Assembly: GCF_009905725.1 (NCBI RefSeq)
Contig: NZ_JAAAKV010000021.1
Span: 1-35,668, forward strand
From: Emticicia sp. CRIBPO
GTDB lineage: Bacteria; Bacteroidota; Bacteroidia; Cytophagales; Spirosomataceae
Length of the DNA: 35,668 nucleotides
Reading direction: 5' to 3'
The notes beneath the pieces are model-generated. The model saw nothing but the letters and a program-made list of their open reading frames with translations. It had not been told where the DNA came from and searched no databases. Position numbers and translations under genes: made by a program. Below are positions 1-7,590 of the stretch, in pieces; the stretch's first letter is position 1; every line of letters begins with the position of its first letter.

Positions 1-933
1 ATCTAAATAGTATTTTTCTTCAATTTTGATATAATTTATGCCATTAAGTAAATTATATTCTTTCGTTTTTTTGTCATTAATAATGAAATCATCACCAGCC
101 TTTTCTTTAATTATTTTTTTTATTGATTTCAGATACTCCTTATAGTATTCATTATTTTTACTTCGAGGTATAAAGACTGCAATTATATCGTCAACATAAC
201 GTGCATAAAAAACTAAATCTCTTAATTCTTTTATCTGATTATCTATTCTTCTCATGAATAACTCAGAAAGGTATGCACTTACTCCAATACCTCTTGGAAC
301 TCCTTTAGGCGATTCATCATTTGACTGATTGGTTAATACATTGTAGCTATCAAATATCTGATTAATGAAATCTTTTGATTTTACACTTAGTAAATGATCA
401 TCATTAATTTTGTTTAGAAGTTTCTTTTGCGGTATAGATTCGTAGAAATCCTTGATATCTGTTCGTATAACATATTTTGGAAATTTATCTTCTAAAATAT
501 TAACAAGGTTACTTAAAATAGCGTAACGGGAGGATTGCTTTACATCATAAGTCTTATTAATATTGTCTTGAATCTTTTTTGAAATGAAGAAATTTTCAAC
601 TTTCTCTTCAAAAATAAAGCATTGCTTACCATGAATACTACCAGAATTTAATAGAACTTTATGACTGTTTATTCGTTCTGTTTTAGCATCTAGTATTTCA
701 AATACTTTTAGCTCCCTTAATTTTTTTAGTTCCCCTTTTCTCTTATAAAGAGCTTTCTTTTCATCCGAATCCGTAGTACGTAGAATGTCTTTCCTAGTGA
801 TCTTCAAATCGTTAATGACTCGAATTGATTCTAAAAAATCGCCGTTAAATTTTTTTTCCAGATTTTTCCCTTTTCGATTTTCACCATCGAATATTTCTTT
901 AAAATTTTTTGTAGAAAAAGATTGATCGAGCAT
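1..933 (-). CDS. Reverse transcriptase, probable antiphage (DRT/UG-type), C-terminus cut by window edge
   Basis: The reading frame starts at the ATG at 933-931 and stays open to base 1, giving 311 residues with no stop, so the C-terminus lies outside the window. The polymerase motifs are in order: motif A RTDIKDFYESI (157-167, catalytic D159), a motif B-like PRGIGVSAYLSEL (213-225), motif C YARYVDDI (243-250, D248 and D249), and a motif D-like LND/IND-KKT segment near 286-290. There is no group II intron maturase or integrase sequence in the visible part. The PRGxGxSAYLSE form of motif B and the short N-terminus (MLDQSFSTKNF) suggest the bacterial unknown-group (UG)/DRT defence enzymes. I recall similar N-termini in Drt3a-like proteins, but this subgroup is a guess from memory. 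The codons are AT-rich like the surrounding accessory DNA. RT identity is near certain; the defence role is inferred. Confidence 0.88.
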   Translation of the reverse strand, partial: MLDQSFSTKNFKEIFDGENRKGKNLEKKFNGDFLESIRVINDLKITRKDILRTTDSDEKKALYKRKGELKKLRELKVFEILDAKTERINSHKVLLNSGSIHGKQCFIFEEKVENFFISKKIQDNINKTYDVKQSSRYAILSNLVNILEDKFPKYVIRTDIKDFYESIPQKKLLNKINDDHLLSVKSKDFINQIFDSYNVLTNQSNDESPKGVPRGIGVSAYLSELFMRRIDNQIKELRDLVFYARYVDDIIAVFIPRSKNNEYYKEYLKSIKKIIKEKAGDDFIINDKKTKEYNLLNGINYIKIEEKYYLD

Positions 934-1285
934 AAAATTCTATTATTTTTTTGTCACCAATCCGTATAAGACATGAAACTTTATCTCATTGTGAACTCCT
1001 GCACAAGACTATTTATAATTTGTGATGAACAACTAGTAAATCAGGGCTACAGACTATAATACAATACTAATAAAAAAATATAACTTATCAGATACAAATT
1101 TAATTTTTAAATAAGTACGTCAGACAACTTGGCTTGTAATAAATAAAAAGGCTAGTTTTTTATTTATTACAAGTTTCACTTTGTAGGCTAAGCAACATGA
1201 GCTATAACTCGTTAATAAATAAGCCAAATATATAATAGGTTTCGAAGGAATATTCAATTAGTTCTCAATGCTTTAATATTGCCCC
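934..1285. other. AT-rich non-coding stretch upstream of the reverse transcriptase
   Basis: No reading frame of credible length or composition is present. On the minus strand there are two TAnnTTTG-like -7 elements (TATATTTG at 1232-1225 and TAAATTTG at 1102-1095). Each has a 3-of-4 match to TTTG 22 bases further upstream, so both promoters are weak candidates. If the more distal one is used, the reverse transcriptase mRNA would have a leader of about 285 bases containing the long hairpin at 1133-1173. Several characterised DRT systems (DRT2 and DRT9, for example) use a non-coding RNA beside the RT gene, so this stretch is the place to look for one here. Confidence 0.5.
1133..1173. other. Perfect 17-bp inverted repeat (hairpin) upstream of the reverse transcriptase
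   Basis: The arm CTTGTAATAAATAAAAA (1133-1149) is exactly complementary to 1157-1173, with a 7-base spacer GGCTAGT. The stem is AT-rich, and no clear T-tract follows it outside the stem on either strand, so it is not a textbook intrinsic terminator. It lies about 200 bases upstream of the reverse transcriptase start. It could be a structured leader or non-coding RNA, a bidirectional terminator, or a remnant of a mobile element. Confidence 0.8.
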
Positions 1286-1672
1286 ACAAATTCCCATCTA
1301 CCGTCCCCCAGAAACATCCGCCCCCACAAATCCATGCTTTTCCTTCAAAACTAGTTCAAAACAAGCTTAATAAAAGTCTCCTTCCTCGTGACACGGTGGG
1401 CTTGCCAGTACAAAGCCTTATATTCCTTAGCTAAATCAGAAGGATGTTTAGAAGATACTCCGATCATCAAAGGTTCATCTATCCCGATTTCTTTTGTGGA
1501 GCCATCTTTCTATTTTTTAACGCGTTGATCTTTCATGAAGACGGTGGCCACATGGTGGCAGTCTTTCAAATGGGTCGCTTTGACGTCTTTTTATGAAGGG
1601 GTATATAATCACCCGTAATCCCGCAGCGAAAGCATAATCGTATAGCTCTTACCATAATCTATATACATTGCA
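1286..1672 (-). pseudogene. Decayed duplicate of the 3' end of the ABC permease/M1 peptidase gene
   Basis: This stretch aligns along its length with the 3' end of the intact gene at 3082-6696, in the same orientation. It shares blocks such as AAGCTTAATAAA, GAAACATCC/AAAACATCC followed by CCCCCACAAA, and TACCATAATCTATATAC. Similarity by eye is roughly three quarters. The match covers about 3097-3420 and then jumps to about 3600-3636, so an internal segment has been lost. Frameshifts and stops interrupt every frame, and nothing here is translatable. It is best read as the tail of a former tandem paralogue of the permease/peptidase gene. The 226-aa gene and the small reading frame now lie between the two copies. 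Confidence 0.8.
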
Positions 1673-1723
1673 GAAGAGCTTCTAGGAGCAAACTAATTAA
1701 AACGCTGTTGTCTTATAAACCTA

Positions 1724-2404
1724 CTATTTTTTTTGTATTTTTCTAATCTCTTCGACAGTTCCATCAATTAATCTTGGAACACTACCGTTTTCGATCTCCG
1801 CAAAATCCACCCGGTGTCCAATAAAGAGGTCGACCGCAATGCAGTAGTTGGGGTTGATATGGAAATTCTCTGAGTAATTTTTTGACAGATATCGATAAAG
1901 CATTTCTGTAAACATTCCCAGTTCATTTTTTTTTAGCCCACCTTTTTTGGCTATAAACCACACCCCACCTATTTCTTCAATATCCCCTTCTGAGAAGGAA
2001 AAAATATGGGATGGTTTTGCTTCTATCTGGAAATTCTTTATTCTAAGTATCTCTTGAGACTTTGGTCTTTTTAAAAACTTCAATTCGGCATTTGGTTTAA
2101 GATTTTCAATGTCGAAATCTTTATATTTTGTTATTATTTCGATGTTTTGTTGAAATTGATCTTTGATCCTTTTGATTTCCGAGATTTCGATCTTCTCTCG
2201 CAAAGCGTCAATTTTATTATCCAAAAGGGCAGAATTGCCAGATTTGAAACTATTATTAATTGAACTTAAACTGGTAATCCAATAATCACCTCCAGAGCTA
2301 TCCTCTGACTTTTCCTTGTCTGTCAACAAGTTTCGAACGAAAGTAATTTTCGACGGATCACTTTTTCTGCGAAATTCAACTAGTTTTTTTATAGTTATTT
2401 TCAT
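1724..2404 (-). CDS. Conserved-looking hypothetical protein, 226 aa
   Basis: I do not recognise the family. The protein is predicted to be soluble, with no signal peptide or membrane segment. Residues 60-105 are strongly helical and charged (KIDALREKIEISEIKRIKDQ), and residues 110-226 are mixed alpha/beta with several aromatic and glycine positions (EEIGGVWFIAKKGGLKKNEL, then a YCIAVDLFIGHRVDF strand). The sequence is of normal complexity and the frame is intact for 681 bases, so it is probably a real gene despite the AT-rich codons. It is followed by the pseudogene remnant and is about 790 bases from the reverse transcriptase, so it is unlikely to share a transcript with it. Its position in the accessory segment makes a defence or mobile-element role conceivable, but nothing in the sequence shows it. 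Confidence 0.75.
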   Translation of the reverse strand: MKITIKKLVEFRRKSDPSKITFVRNLLTDKEKSEDSSGGDYWITSLSSINNSFKSGNSALLDNKIDALREKIEISEIKRIKDQFQQNIEIITKYKDFDIENLKPNAELKFLKRPKSQEILRIKNFQIEAKPSHIFSFSEGDIEEIGGVWFIAKKGGLKKNELGMFTEMLYRYLSKNYSENFHINPNYCIAVDLFIGHRVDFAEIENGSVPRLIDGTVEEIRKIQKK

Positions 2405-3081: not shown

Positions 3082-6000
3082 CTACTTCAACGCTGCCACG
3101 TTGTCATTTAAATCTGCATCCACTCGTGTTCCAAAAACATCCACCCCCACAAAACCAGGCTTCTCCTTCAAAATAAGCTTAATAAAGGTCTCCTTCTGCG
3201 TGACACGATGGGCCTGCAAATACATAGTCTTGTCGCCCTTGTGTAAGTTGGAAGTATGTTTAGGAAATACCCCAATCATCAAATCCTCATCAATGCCAAT
3301 CTCTTTCACGGATCCATCCTTCTGTGTTTCAAGGCGTTGGGCTTTGAGGGTGAAGCTGACTTCGTAGCGGCCGTCTTTGAGTCGGGTGACTTTGGGGTCT
3401 TTGACGGAGAGGTCGTAAATGATCACTTTCTTAAACCAGTCGTTGATCAGGGCGTGTTGGGCGGGTGGGGTGACTTTGTACACTTCGTCGAGGAACTCCA
3501 GGGAAGTCAGGGTTTGACGGTACTGACCTCGGTGTCTGTCGGTGATGGTTTTGATGACGTTGTTCAGCTTTTCTTCGCCCATCAAATCACGGAGGGCCAT
3601 CAGCGACATATATCCCTTACCATAATCTATATACCCCTGTCCGTCGACCAGGTAAACGGGTGGTTCCTGGCCTGCGGATTCTGAGCGGCCGGAGAAGTAA
3701 GTCCGGTTGGCAGTATTGGCGAGTTGCCACAGGCTGGCGGGGCCGTGGTGTTTCTCCATCACTACCGCTTCAGTATATTTGGCAAAGCCTTCGATCATCA
3801 GACTTGCCCCGGCGATGTTGCGGGGTTGTAGCGTATGTCCCCACCACTGATGGGCTACCTCATGGATGGTCCGCTTGGCCACCAGGTCAAAAGCCTCCGG
3901 ATTCCGCTGGTCGGTGAGGTACAGTCGGTTCTCCACCATCGCGATGGTACCCGCATGGGCAAACCCACCGAAATTCCAGTGGGCAGGCACTTCGACGATC
4001 CTCAGGTGTCTGAAAGGGTACGCCCCAAACTGTGCTATGCAATAATCGAGGGTCTGCCGGGTGCTGGCCGCGATGTTTTCCACGTTAAAGTCATGCCCCG
4101 GATGATAATACTGCTCGATGCTGATGCCTTTGTACATTTCTTTTCTGACCGTATACTTTCCTGAGAAATAAGCGATGACCGGTAAGATCTTCTGAGAGGA
4201 GCGGTAGTTGAAATATGCTCTGTCGCCTTTGGTCCTGGTTTTGATGAGGTCGCCCGGGGCGATGGCCGTCTGACCGGCGGTGGTTGATACCACGGTCTCG
4301 AAATCTATGGTACCGCCTGTCGCTGTTTCGTCGGCCAGGTGTTCGTCTGTCGTTATCTCCTCTGGACTCACGGGCAGTTTTCTTTTTTCTCTTTCAAAAC
4401 GGTCGCTGATCTCCAATCCGCTGCGATAGCCCAGGACTGGTTCAAAGACCCGATGACTCAGGTAGCTGCCGTTGCCGACCACCGATTCGCTGGTTTCGAA
4501 GCCCTTCATGGTTTTGTGAAGTGTGTAGCTGAATTTCACCTGCTGACCGGGCTGAACGGCTTGTTTGAATCTGAACAGGTAAACCCCGAGTTCAGGATCA
4601 TGGCTGATCAGTTCGGAATTTCCGAGCTGCAGTTGGTCCAGGGTTTCTCTTTCGGTGATCAGCATTTCGGCTACAGGTAAGGTGCTGTTGTTGATCAGTA
4701 CCAGGTCTGCCCGGATATCGAAGGCGTTTTTTTCTGGAAACAGGTCCACTTTGGTTTTCATCTGAAGCGGATACAGACGCTCCAACGAGTCATATTTTTT
4801 GTATTGCCGCTCATACTGCTCCAGCTGATTGAGCTGCTGAGCCGTGGTCATGTAAGTGCCTTCGATGTTGGTCCGGTAGTAAATCAGGGCGGCAGATGAA
4901 ATAAAACCAAGAGTCAATAAAACCATGGCGGCCATTTGCCATTGAGGCAGACGGGTAAAGGCTCTTTTGAGTCTGAAAATGAAGCTGTGTACGGTGCCTC
5001 TCTCCCAAAGTCTGAAACTGAGCAACACAAAAAGCAGTCCCAGCGACATCCAGTAGGAGGCATAATGATGGAAGGCCCTGGTTTCGCCACTGTAACCCGC
5101 CATGTCAGAATAAGAAGGCTCAGGTAAACGACCGAGGCGTAGCATAGGATGTTCAATGCCCAACCTTGGAGTCAGGAAAGAACCGAACAAAAGGATTAGG
5201 AGCAGGGTAATGCCCATGCCCAGGTATTTGTTGGCCGCCAGGGTCTGTACAAACATCGCCAGAAGAATATAAAATAGGATGGATATGCCATGATAATAGA
5301 ACACAGAGAGATAAAGACCCGGCTCAAAACGGAAGTAGCCGCCTGCCAGCTGAAAACCCAGGACACAGACAAGGCCTGATAAGATCAGGAAAAACGGCAG
5401 GAAAGCCAGGGCTGTGAATTTGGACGAAAACAAGACCAGGTTAGAAGCCGGGGTGGCGTCGCCGATGCCGTTGAAGCGGATGGTTCTTTCCCGGAACACG
5501 ATCTCGCCACTGTAAAAAATGATCAGCATCAGGCTGAAAGGCCACAAAGAGGAAGTAAATTCCCTGATGAGGATATAGTTGGCGGGGTAAAGGCTGTCGT
5601 GGTAGTCTCCACCCTCATAGATTTTAGAATAGATTTCAGAAATGGTAATGACGAGCCAGAACAGCATGATTCCGATAAAGGGTAAGCCCTTGAAAACGCT
5701 GTTCAACTCTATTTTTAAAAGCGAAAAAAACGATTGCCATTGGGTATTTACTCCTGATTGAACAGGAACCGGACGATAGGATCGCAGCGAAATGGTATCC
5801 TGGTCGTTTTCATGGCCGTCGTTGAAACGTTTACGTCTCCAGAAGAAAAAAGGCGATTTTGACGGCGATTTAATCTTCTCATTCAGCTTCCGGAAAGAAA
5901 ACAGGCCATAAGTAATCGCCAGCAGTCCGAAACCCAGTCCGATCCAGACCACGCGGTTCCAGAGGAAATAGCCCGATAAGGTCAGGGAATCTGAGTTTTT

Positions 6001-6696
6001 CTGAAAAGGGGTCCAATATTGTGTTTTTTCAAAAAAGGCGGACAGTCCGAAAGGGTCAGCGAGGGCGGCATAAACCAGGTTTTCGGGAGACACAGGTACG
6101 GCGTTGGCCAGCAGGGGGGAGTTCAGGAAAATGGCACAAACCCAGTACAAAACATAGATCAGAACAGCCCCGAGATAGGTGAGGGTCTGGTTTTTGCTCA
6201 GCATGCTCACCGCAAAAATAACACAAGTACAAATAAAGACATTGGGCAGCACCAGAAAGGCCCAGGCGATGAAATAAGGAGCCATGGTCAAAGGGGCCAG
6301 CCGCTCAGGATCCAGCGGGGCGAGGGTATGGGCCAGGGCAATCCCCAGTACAACAGGACTGAAAGCCAGCAGACTGAAGAGGAATACGCCCAGGAAACGG
6401 CTGATGAAGAACTGACTTTTGGAGATGGCGGTGCTGTAAATCAGGGCCTCGCTGCGGTACTGGCTGTCACGCAGCACCCCGCTGACGGTAAAAAACATGA
6501 TCACAAAAACACAGCCGAGGGTAAATAGCCCGGCATTGTAAGCGACCTGGAAGGGCGAATTGAGGAGGATGCCTTCCCGGGCAAAGCCCTGTGCCCCGAT
6601 CATGTACCCGAACGAGAGGAATAGCAAAGAAAAAAGGACAAAAGAACGCTGTCTGAGCTGGTAACTCACTTCAAATTTTAATAAGGATATCAACAT
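3082..6696 (-). CDS. ABC transporter permease fused to an M1-type metallopeptidase
   Basis: The 1204-residue protein begins with an ABC-2-type permease region with many hydrophobic helices. There are two blocks, roughly 18-270 and 330-590, joined by a charged linker with a KSPSKSPFFFWRRKRF patch. A single helix near 592-612 leads to a periplasmic half. The C-terminal part is an M1/gluzincin peptidase with GTIAMVEN (916-923, the GAMEN-like exopeptidase motif), HEVAHQWWGH (945-954, zinc ligands H945 and H949, catalytic E946) and the third ligand E969 in IEGFAKY. All catalytic residues are present, so the peptidase should be active. Fusions of this type are known in Bacteroidota and are usually annotated ABC transporter permease/M1 family aminopeptidase. 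The gene lies 3 bases downstream of its ATPase, so the two form one operon. Substrate unknown; a peptide that is exported or trimmed at the membrane is plausible. Confidence 0.92.
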   Translation of the reverse strand: MLISLLKFEVSYQLRQRSFVLFSLLFLSFGYMIGAQGFAREGILLNSPFQVAYNAGLFTLGCVFVIMFFTVSGVLRDSQYRSEALIYSTAISKSQFFISRFLGVFLFSLLAFSPVVLGIALAHTLAPLDPERLAPLTMAPYFIAWAFLVLPNVFICTCVIFAVSMLSKNQTLTYLGAVLIYVLYWVCAIFLNSPLLANAVPVSPENLVYAALADPFGLSAFFEKTQYWTPFQKNSDSLTLSGYFLWNRVVWIGLGFGLLAITYGLFSFRKLNEKIKSPSKSPFFFWRRKRFNDGHENDQDTISLRSYRPVPVQSGVNTQWQSFFSLLKIELNSVFKGLPFIGIMLFWLVITISEIYSKIYEGGDYHDSLYPANYILIREFTSSLWPFSLMLIIFYSGEIVFRERTIRFNGIGDATPASNLVLFSSKFTALAFLPFFLILSGLVCVLGFQLAGGYFRFEPGLYLSVFYYHGISILFYILLAMFVQTLAANKYLGMGITLLLILLFGSFLTPRLGIEHPMLRLGRLPEPSYSDMAGYSGETRAFHHYASYWMSLGLLFVLLSFRLWERGTVHSFIFRLKRAFTRLPQWQMAAMVLLTLGFISSAALIYYRTNIEGTYMTTAQQLNQLEQYERQYKKYDSLERLYPLQMKTKVDLFPEKNAFDIRADLVLINNSTLPVAEMLITERETLDQLQLGNSELISHDPELGVYLFRFKQAVQPGQQVKFSYTLHKTMKGFETSESVVGNGSYLSHRVFEPVLGYRSGLEISDRFEREKRKLPVSPEEITTDEHLADETATGGTIDFETVVSTTAGQTAIAPGDLIKTRTKGDRAYFNYRSSQKILPVIAYFSGKYTVRKEMYKGISIEQYYHPGHDFNVENIAASTRQTLDYCIAQFGAYPFRHLRIVEVPAHWNFGGFAHAGTIAMVENRLYLTDQRNPEAFDLVAKRTIHEVAHQWWGHTLQPRNIAGASLMIEGFAKYTEAVVMEKHHGPASLWQLANTANRTYFSGRSESAGQEPPVYLVDGQGYIDYGKGYMSLMALRDLMGEEKLNNVIKTITDRHRGQYRQTLTSLEFLDEVYKVTPPAQHALINDWFKKVIIYDLSVKDPKVTRLKDGRYEVSFTLKAQRLETQKDGSVKEIGIDEDLMIGVFPKHTSNLHKGDKTMYLQAHRVTQKETFIKLILKEKPGFVGVDVFGTRVDADLNDNVAALK

Positions 6697-6699
6697 GGC

Positions 6700-7590
6700 T
6701 CAGAGGGTTTTGGCGTGGGCACGGGTGGAAAAATAGACGTCTTCGAGGTCAGGCTGCACCAGCTCAAACCCGGTTTCAGGTCGTTCGTCAGACAGCACAT
6801 GGATCTGGGTTTTGCCGGACACGAGTTTGGTGGAAATGACGCGGAAACGCTGGCGGTACTCAGGTAAAGCTTCTTTCGGGATGGCTTTGTTCCAGATCCT
6901 GTTTTCGAGCGAGCGGACCAGTTCCAGGGGATTGCCCCGGGCAATGAGTTGTCCTTCGGCCAGGATGCCCATGTCAGGACATAAATCATAGACGTCTTCG
7001 ACAATGTGGGTGGAAAGGATGACGATGATGTTCTCGCCGATTTCGCTGAGGAGGTTCAGGAAGCGGTTGCGTTCTTCGGGATCAAGACCCGCAGTAGGTT
7101 CATCGACAATAATCAGCTGCGGGTTGCCGAGCAGGGCCTGGGCGATGCCGAACCGCTGCCGCATGCCACCCGAGAACGTATAAACCGCTTTTTTACGGTG
7201 TTCGTACAGGTTGGTCTGGCGGAGCAGGGAGGCCACATGTTCTTCTCTTTCTTTTTTATGGGAAATGCCCTTCAGGACCGCGATGTGGTCGAGTAGGCTT
7301 TGGGCGGATATTTTAGGATAAACACCGAACTCCTGGGGCAAATAACCCAACTGTCTGCGGATTACTTCAGGGGCGGCGATAATGTCTGTGCCGTTAAAAT
7401 GGATGCTGCCTGAGGTAGGTTCCTGTAAAGTGGCGATGGTCCGCATCAGGGACGACTTGCCCGCCCCGTTGGAGCCCAGGAGGCCGAACATGCCGTTTTT
7501 GAGCGTAAGTGATACATTATGGAGGGCTTTTACCCCGTTGGGATAAGTTTTAGATAAGTTTTCGATTTTCAGAATGTTCATGCTTGTCAA
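6700..7590 (-). CDS. ABC transporter ATP-binding protein
   Basis: This is a complete ABC ATPase with Walker A GSNGAGKSS (39-47), Q-loop region GYLPQEFGVYP (82-92), signature SGGMRQR (140-146), Walker B LIIVDEP (159-165), D-loop AGLD and switch histidine H195 (STHIVEDV). The extra 80 residues at the C-terminus are typical of ATPases that serve ABC-2 exporters. Either the first ATG or the one three codons later (MNILKIEN) could be used; the second fits the family start better. It is the first gene of the leftward operon with the permease/peptidase fusion and is read divergently from the histidine kinase at 7954. LytS/LytTR pairs often control adjacent ABC exporters, which suggests, without proving, that this operon is their target. 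Confidence 0.96.
   Translation of the reverse strand: MTSMNILKIENLSKTYPNGVKALHNVSLTLKNGMFGLLGSNGAGKSSLMRTIATLQEPTSGSIHFNGTDIIAAPEVIRRQLGYLPQEFGVYPKISAQSLLDHIAVLKGISHKKEREEHVASLLRQTNLYEHRKKAVYTFSGGMRQRFGIAQALLGNPQLIIVDEPTAGLDPEERNRFLNLLSEIGENIIVILSTHIVEDVYDLCPDMGILAEGQLIARGNPLELVRSLENRIWNKAIPKEALPEYRQRFRVISTKLVSGKTQIHVLSDERPETGFELVQPDLEDVYFSTRAHAKTL

Follow-up and report, generated by a model that had tools for sequence, protein, structure and literature searches.

A probable DRT3 anti-phage locus with two partner reverse transcriptases, divided between two contigs, in Emticicia sp. CRIBPO

Introduction

DRT3 is a known anti-phage system built around two partner reverse transcriptases (RTs), Drt3a and Drt3b. 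For the Escherichia coli system, the consulted portions of the published account (PMC13174585) describe that Drt3a, together with a non-coding RNA (ncRNA), makes poly(dTdG), and that Drt3b makes poly(dCdA) from its own tyrosine with no nucleic-acid template, using residues E22 and R241 as gates; both strands then anneal. According to the same portions, the DRT3 product is held down by RecBCD, and the RecBCD inhibitor Gam of phage lambda triggers growth arrest (PMC13174585). Solved chains named Drt3a and Drt3b are available in entries 9z6y and 9z6z. Entry 26cz, a SUMO-tagged RT, was taken as E. coli Drt3b because its numbering fits the consulted portions of PMC13174585.

Here, a stretch of 35,668 nucleotides from Emticicia sp. 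CRIBPO (the window) was analyzed, at the left edge of which an incomplete RT gene is located. Judged by its sequence, this gene is the start of Drt3a, and together with the end of a second contig of the same genome it is highly probable that a complete DRT3 anti-phage system is present, interrupted by an assembly gap. New are the taxon in which it occurs, the greater length of both proteins and the nuclease of the host; otherwise, the system is ordinary for DRT3. A query of one literature collection with the words DRT3, Bacteroidota and reverse transcriptase returned no publication joining the three.

The drt3a fragment in the window

The fragment and its motifs are located as follows:
Window 1-933, minus strand: 5' part of drt3a (311 codons), encoding a class 2 UG reverse transcriptase (open reading frame, PADLOC and NCBIfam)
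Window 187-198, minus strand: RT catalytic motif YVDD, residues 246-249 (translated frame)
Window 262-297, minus strand: RT motif B region, PRGIGVSAYLSE, residues 213-224 (translated frame)
Window 433-459, minus strand: RT motif A, DIKDFYESI, residues 159-167 (translated frame)

The frame starts with ATG at position 933, continues for 311 residues with no internal stop and exits the window at base 1. Since this base is also base 1 of contig C14 (the genome of 6.06 Mb is distributed over 39 contigs), the truncation of drt3a coincides with the contig end. A preliminary description of this DNA had reported an intact 311-residue RT frame in AT-rich accessory DNA, and both statements were borne out: motif A, motif B and YVDD are found as described there, and GC content amounts to 32% in 1-2404 compared to 51% in 3082-7590 and 47% elsewhere in the window. 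The same description had suggested a Drt3a-like enzyme and proposed a search of the protein against UG/DRT profiles. When PADLOC was run, 47 families matched, the top three being Drt3a models (E 1.3e-67, 4.7e-48 and 9e-46), which assigns the protein to Drt3a, a UG3-type RT; RT_UG17 was the best family other than Drt3a (E 3.9e-23). Likewise, the NCBIfam Drt3a equivalog NF041747 gave 257.4 bits from the window fragment alone (cut-off 200), with profile positions 1-244 of 412 covered.

As the fragment also matches the general RT domain (Pfam RVT_1, 51.9 bits at a cut-off of 29.6) and, weakly, models of both other kinds, an RT of a group II intron or a retron has to be considered. This origin is extremely improbable, because in PADLOC the E-value of Drt3a is over 40 orders of magnitude better than that of any other type and the C-terminal piece of drt3a, described below, matches only Drt3a models. 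As far as the sequence goes, a group II intron maturase was ruled out at 53.6 bits against a cut-off of 300, and a retron at 48.8 bits against a cut-off of 235 (St85, the sole retron model matching), each with no Rfam match. The earlier statement that intron-maturase sequence is absent holds, with both scores far under the cut-offs. Neither in the window nor in L008, a stretch from the right-hand end of contig C13 of the same genome, does any Rfam family attain its gathering score.

The second half of drt3a and the presumed contig junction

In L008, the remaining parts of the locus are found on one strand:
C13 40044-40652 (L008 10045-10653), minus strand: drt3a, last 202 codons (Drt3a profile)
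L008 10054 to 7781, minus strand: drt3b, 757 residues (NCBIfam Drt3b)
L008 7647-7778, minus strand: putative structured ncRNA with ACACAC (covariance model and predicted fold)

The 202-residue frame on C13 is open at the contig end and matches positions 246-412 of 412 in the Drt3a profile. Searching the whole genome with the Drt3a model gave four matches, namely in the window, at C13:40050-40622, at a second place on C13 and on C10. The two best of these are the two drt3a pieces, while the others correspond to Drt3b itself and a DRT2-type RT. The latter (L006:1249-2904 on C10; PADLOC E 1.4e-133) is another defence RT of this genome. Among 14 control genomes, the Drt3a model matches in three at E <= 0.001; it is hence not specific alone, and weak matches to it mean little by themselves.

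The ends of C14 and C13 share three bases and lack an overlap of ten or more. This would be compatible with a real rearrangement that separates C13 from C14, leaving the cell with a broken drt3a. Yet the two pieces meet within one profile position (244/246), in frame and on the same strand; each runs to the last base of its contig, neither contains an internal stop, and the genome holds no other Drt3a piece, so that a rearrangement appears very improbable. In an alignment to four relatives, both pieces break within one variable loop, and the gap between the contigs is therefore probably small or nil. Joined, they appear to exceed the relatives by about 11 residues at the junction (counted by eye in a variable loop), hence a few codons may be missing or extra. 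From these features, we infer that the ends of C13 and C14 abut. Nothing on this adjacency was learned from genus relatives, for which the window peptidase and a C13 gene were compared. Relatives of the peptidase in genus genomes are only 29-30% identical (8 of 10 genomes match, its own included), and the stretches beside the relatives found for the C13 gene (81-82% identical), one of these stretches ending after 3 kb, contain no window or C13 genes except two distant (23-24%) peptidase pieces.

Drt3b

If the gene was indeed drt3a, a second RT, Drt3b, had been expected just beyond base 1 of the window. It is present at the end of C13, and a sharp prediction from raw sequence was thus confirmed. 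Drt3b, a UG8-type RT, scores 697.3 bits against NCBIfam NF041748 over positions 1-647 of 647 (cut-off 350); under the strict limits applied in the genome searches, the Drt3b model gave no match in any of 14 control genomes. Its gene adjoins the C-terminal piece of drt3a on the 3' side and on the same strand, with an overlap of ten bases if the listed TTG is the start. The locus order on one strand is therefore drt3a (window 933 to 1, then L008 10653 to 10045), drt3b and ncRNA.

Alignment to 26cz places E27, R114, D224, R285 and Y319-D322 of Drt3b at E22, R71, D182, R241 and Y276-D279 of the E. coli enzyme. The offset of 108 applied to the 26cz numbering is the difference between its chain length (775) and the published length (667); as a check, all ten printed positions bear the expected letter, nine of them named in PMC13174585 and the tenth being the second D of YVDD. 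The catalytic aspartates D224 and D321/D322 are present, and the protein ends in ...HSVY with tyrosine Y757 as last residue. In a 24-row Drt3b alignment, whose loci are not all independent (L015/L018, L030/L031 and L021/L022), the R241 equivalent is kept in 24/24 rows and that of E22 in 23/24, the remaining row being gapped.

As far as the consulted portions of PMC13174585 allow, the locus resembles E. coli DRT3 in the order of the two RT genes, a downstream ncRNA with ACACAC, gate and catalytic residues and a C-terminal tyrosine. In contrast, both proteins are longer: Drt3a comprises about 512 amino acids versus a solved chain of 426 residues, and Drt3b 757 versus 667 (PMC13174585) or 650 (9z6y chain). 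Moreover, the tyrosine is the last residue here, whereas it is Y666 of 667 in the E. coli protein as given in the same portions. In stop-to-stop numbering, Drt3b has extra stretches around residues 81-95, 451-499 and 547-564, which are common to the four near relatives.

The predicted non-coding RNA downstream of drt3b

On the 3' side of drt3b, L008 carries AATACACACAAGCCC followed by a terminator-like hairpin, and the same layout is found in the four close relatives (Ochrovirga, Flagellimonas, Psychroflexus and a Zunongwangia MAG). While the template of these relatives reads CACACACA, that of the window genome reads TACACACA. A covariance model was built from the relatives' DRT3 loci, two of which (L015 and L018) are nearly alike, leaving out the sequence of the window genome. 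This model scores 51.4 bits in L008, its sole match in the whole genome (E 4.1e-9), and gives no match upstream of drt3a in the window. Applied to 21 sources, it matches four at E <= 1, namely L008, L009 (0.005), L019 (0.06) and L010 (0.19), with a weak match also on the opposite strand of L008 (0.31); hence, this RNA family is demonstrated among near relatives, but only weakly outside them.

Only one of 200 shuffled versions folds as well as or better than the RNA of the window genome. In their predicted folds, this RNA and those of three relatives share GGGC/GCCC as closing stem and a pair of 3' hairpins, and ACACAC remains single-stranded in the centroid folds; the minimum-energy fold of the window genome's RNA, as opposed to its centroid, pairs the first bases at the template edge. 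In a MAFFT alignment that includes the window genome, several pairs of the 5' hairpin and the GGTAAC hairpin are broken or gapped in its row. As the third hairpin is out of register by about two bases in this row, pair counts there understate the agreement, and the conclusion on the RNA rests on the covariance model rather than on such counts. Of 24 Drt3b loci, that of the window genome among them, 20 have ACACAC in the 250 nt that follow drt3b, whereas shuffles predict 1.4; with 450 nt considered, the number is 21. L008:7647-7778 is presumably transcribed into the ncRNA.

Relatives and distribution

The four closest relatives found (L015-L018) share the gene order and have a Drt3b 66-69% identical to that of the window genome. 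Their Drt3a is 60-62% and 64-65% identical to the two pieces, they carry a matching ncRNA, and their Drt3b forms one clade with that of the window genome (support 1.000); unlike here, however, their whole locus is intact on one contig. From their names, we take these organisms to be Flavobacteriia. Since the closest sequences found thus belong to Flavobacteriia and not to the sampled genomes of the window genome's own order, horizontal transfer is suggested. The close-relative search returned 8 loci, and nearer relatives may therefore have been missed. Drt3b was found in 6/395 genomes of the phylum (E <= 1e-60) and in 4/390 of the order (E <= 1e-50), each time including the window genome, as well as in 1/244 genomes of another class, this one being the centre of that search. 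Three other sampled members of the genus gave no Drt3b at E <= 1e-50.

A plasmid of Bacteroides finegoldii (NZ_OY725958.1) has annotated drt3a and drt3b in this order and ACACAC 3' of drt3b, but its DRT3 is plasmid-borne and distant in sequence (Drt3b 36% identical). It should be mentioned that 14 plasmid matches were listed, six of which entered the locus set (H38 as H1, H44 as H2, H40, H43, H47 and H48), those left out being from E. coli, Vibrio, Enterobacter, a second L. plantarum and four Pediococcus. The viral contigs searched yielded one distant relative and, apart from this, just the phage SE-1 locus in a further copy.

Additionally, the Drt3b proteins of L014 (G031), L027 (Erysipelothrix phage SE-1) and L028 (Lactiplantibacillus plasmid) cluster together with a support of 0.993. 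They keep the E22 and R241 equivalents, yet the 450 nt 3' of drt3b are free of ACACAC; in L028, drt3a and drt3b are divergently oriented. Possibly, these three form a DRT3 branch with the RNA elsewhere. L027 and L028 each contain one intergenic GTGTGT (ACACAC on the other strand), which may be a chance 6-mer.

Genomic neighbourhood

Upstream of drt3a, two further features were recorded:
Window 934-1723, minus strand: AT-rich region upstream of drt3a, presumably containing the promoter
Window 1724-2404, same strand as drt3a: 226-residue protein upstream of it

The 226-residue protein has no PADLOC, NCBIfam or significant Pfam match and no second copy in the genome. Within the AT-rich region, an inverted repeat at window 1133-1173 is 90% self-complementary, AT-rich and terminator-like. 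Window 1308-1590 is a degraded partial copy of the 3' end (final ~110 codons) of the M1 peptidase gene, which lies at 3082-6696; identity is 71.7% over 283 bases. It may have been left behind by a local duplication or an insertion separating the operon and drt3a. This peptidase/ABC operon is located 2.1 kb upstream of drt3a; SusD-type, TonB receptor and Por-sorting genes are also present in the window.

The preliminary description had considered that the adjacent operon might make an undescribed variant of the system. No link to DRT3 was found. Among 10 DRT3 genomes, a peptidase homologue (25-29% identical) occurs in six and is adjacent to DRT3 in none; the homologues have another contig number (taken from record names for L016 and L018) or lie hundreds of kb off on the same contig. 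Upstream flanks of drt3a in six loci (17-20 kb) contain no peptidase homologue, and a distant ABC ATPase (25-28%) is found in 2/6 of them, about 12-14 kb away. Furthermore, homologues of eight neighbouring proteins are present in none of 25 DRT3 stretches, which extend 1.5-4 kb from the drt3b match and in most cases end shortly past drt3a; two of these stretches are wider cuts of listed loci.

On the other side of the locus, about 1.5 kb past the ncRNA and with one DUF6438 gene between, L008:5351-6109 encodes an SpbK-like TIR-domain protein (PADLOC E 2.5e-41), likely a second nearby defence gene.

Proposed mechanism and host nuclease

Because all parts are present in the sequence, the same synthesis as in E. 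coli DRT3 is the best reading. By analogy, Drt3a would use ACACAC of the ncRNA as template for repeated poly(dTdG) synthesis, while Drt3b would begin poly(dCdA) on its C-terminal tyrosine, with dA and dC picked alternately by E27 and R285. Annealing of both strands would then give double-stranded repeat DNA, which host nucleases may restrain until a phage disables them, whereupon the cell would stop growing. Activity, products and trigger of the DRT3 in the window genome are thus all predicted from the E. coli system.

Regarding the nuclease, no RecC (PF04257) was found in the genome above cut-off; the best match reaches 21.2 bits (cut-off 25) and contains two internal stops. Hence, the published RecBCD regulation may not carry over. 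Two frames of the genome contain a PDDEXK_1 domain, the second scoring 23.4 in one scan and 21.3 in another at a cut-off of 22, and one of the two also contains UvrD helicase C-terminal domains; read by these domains, they would be AddB and AddA-like proteins. It is a tentative and rather unlikely idea that DRT3, which here has longer RTs and an ncRNA variant of its own, guards a different nuclease in this host, sensing phage attack on AddAB instead of RecBCD.

With this locus, a system that has only recently been explained, and in which the DNA sequence is selected by a protein, is seen with its RNA part in place in bacteria distant from E. coli. At the same time, it offers a host in which the proposed RecBCD link is testable, RecBCD being apparently replaced by an AddAB-like enzyme. 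If the idea on AddAB were true, DRT3 would be a general alarm for the loss of whichever end-processing nuclease a host has.
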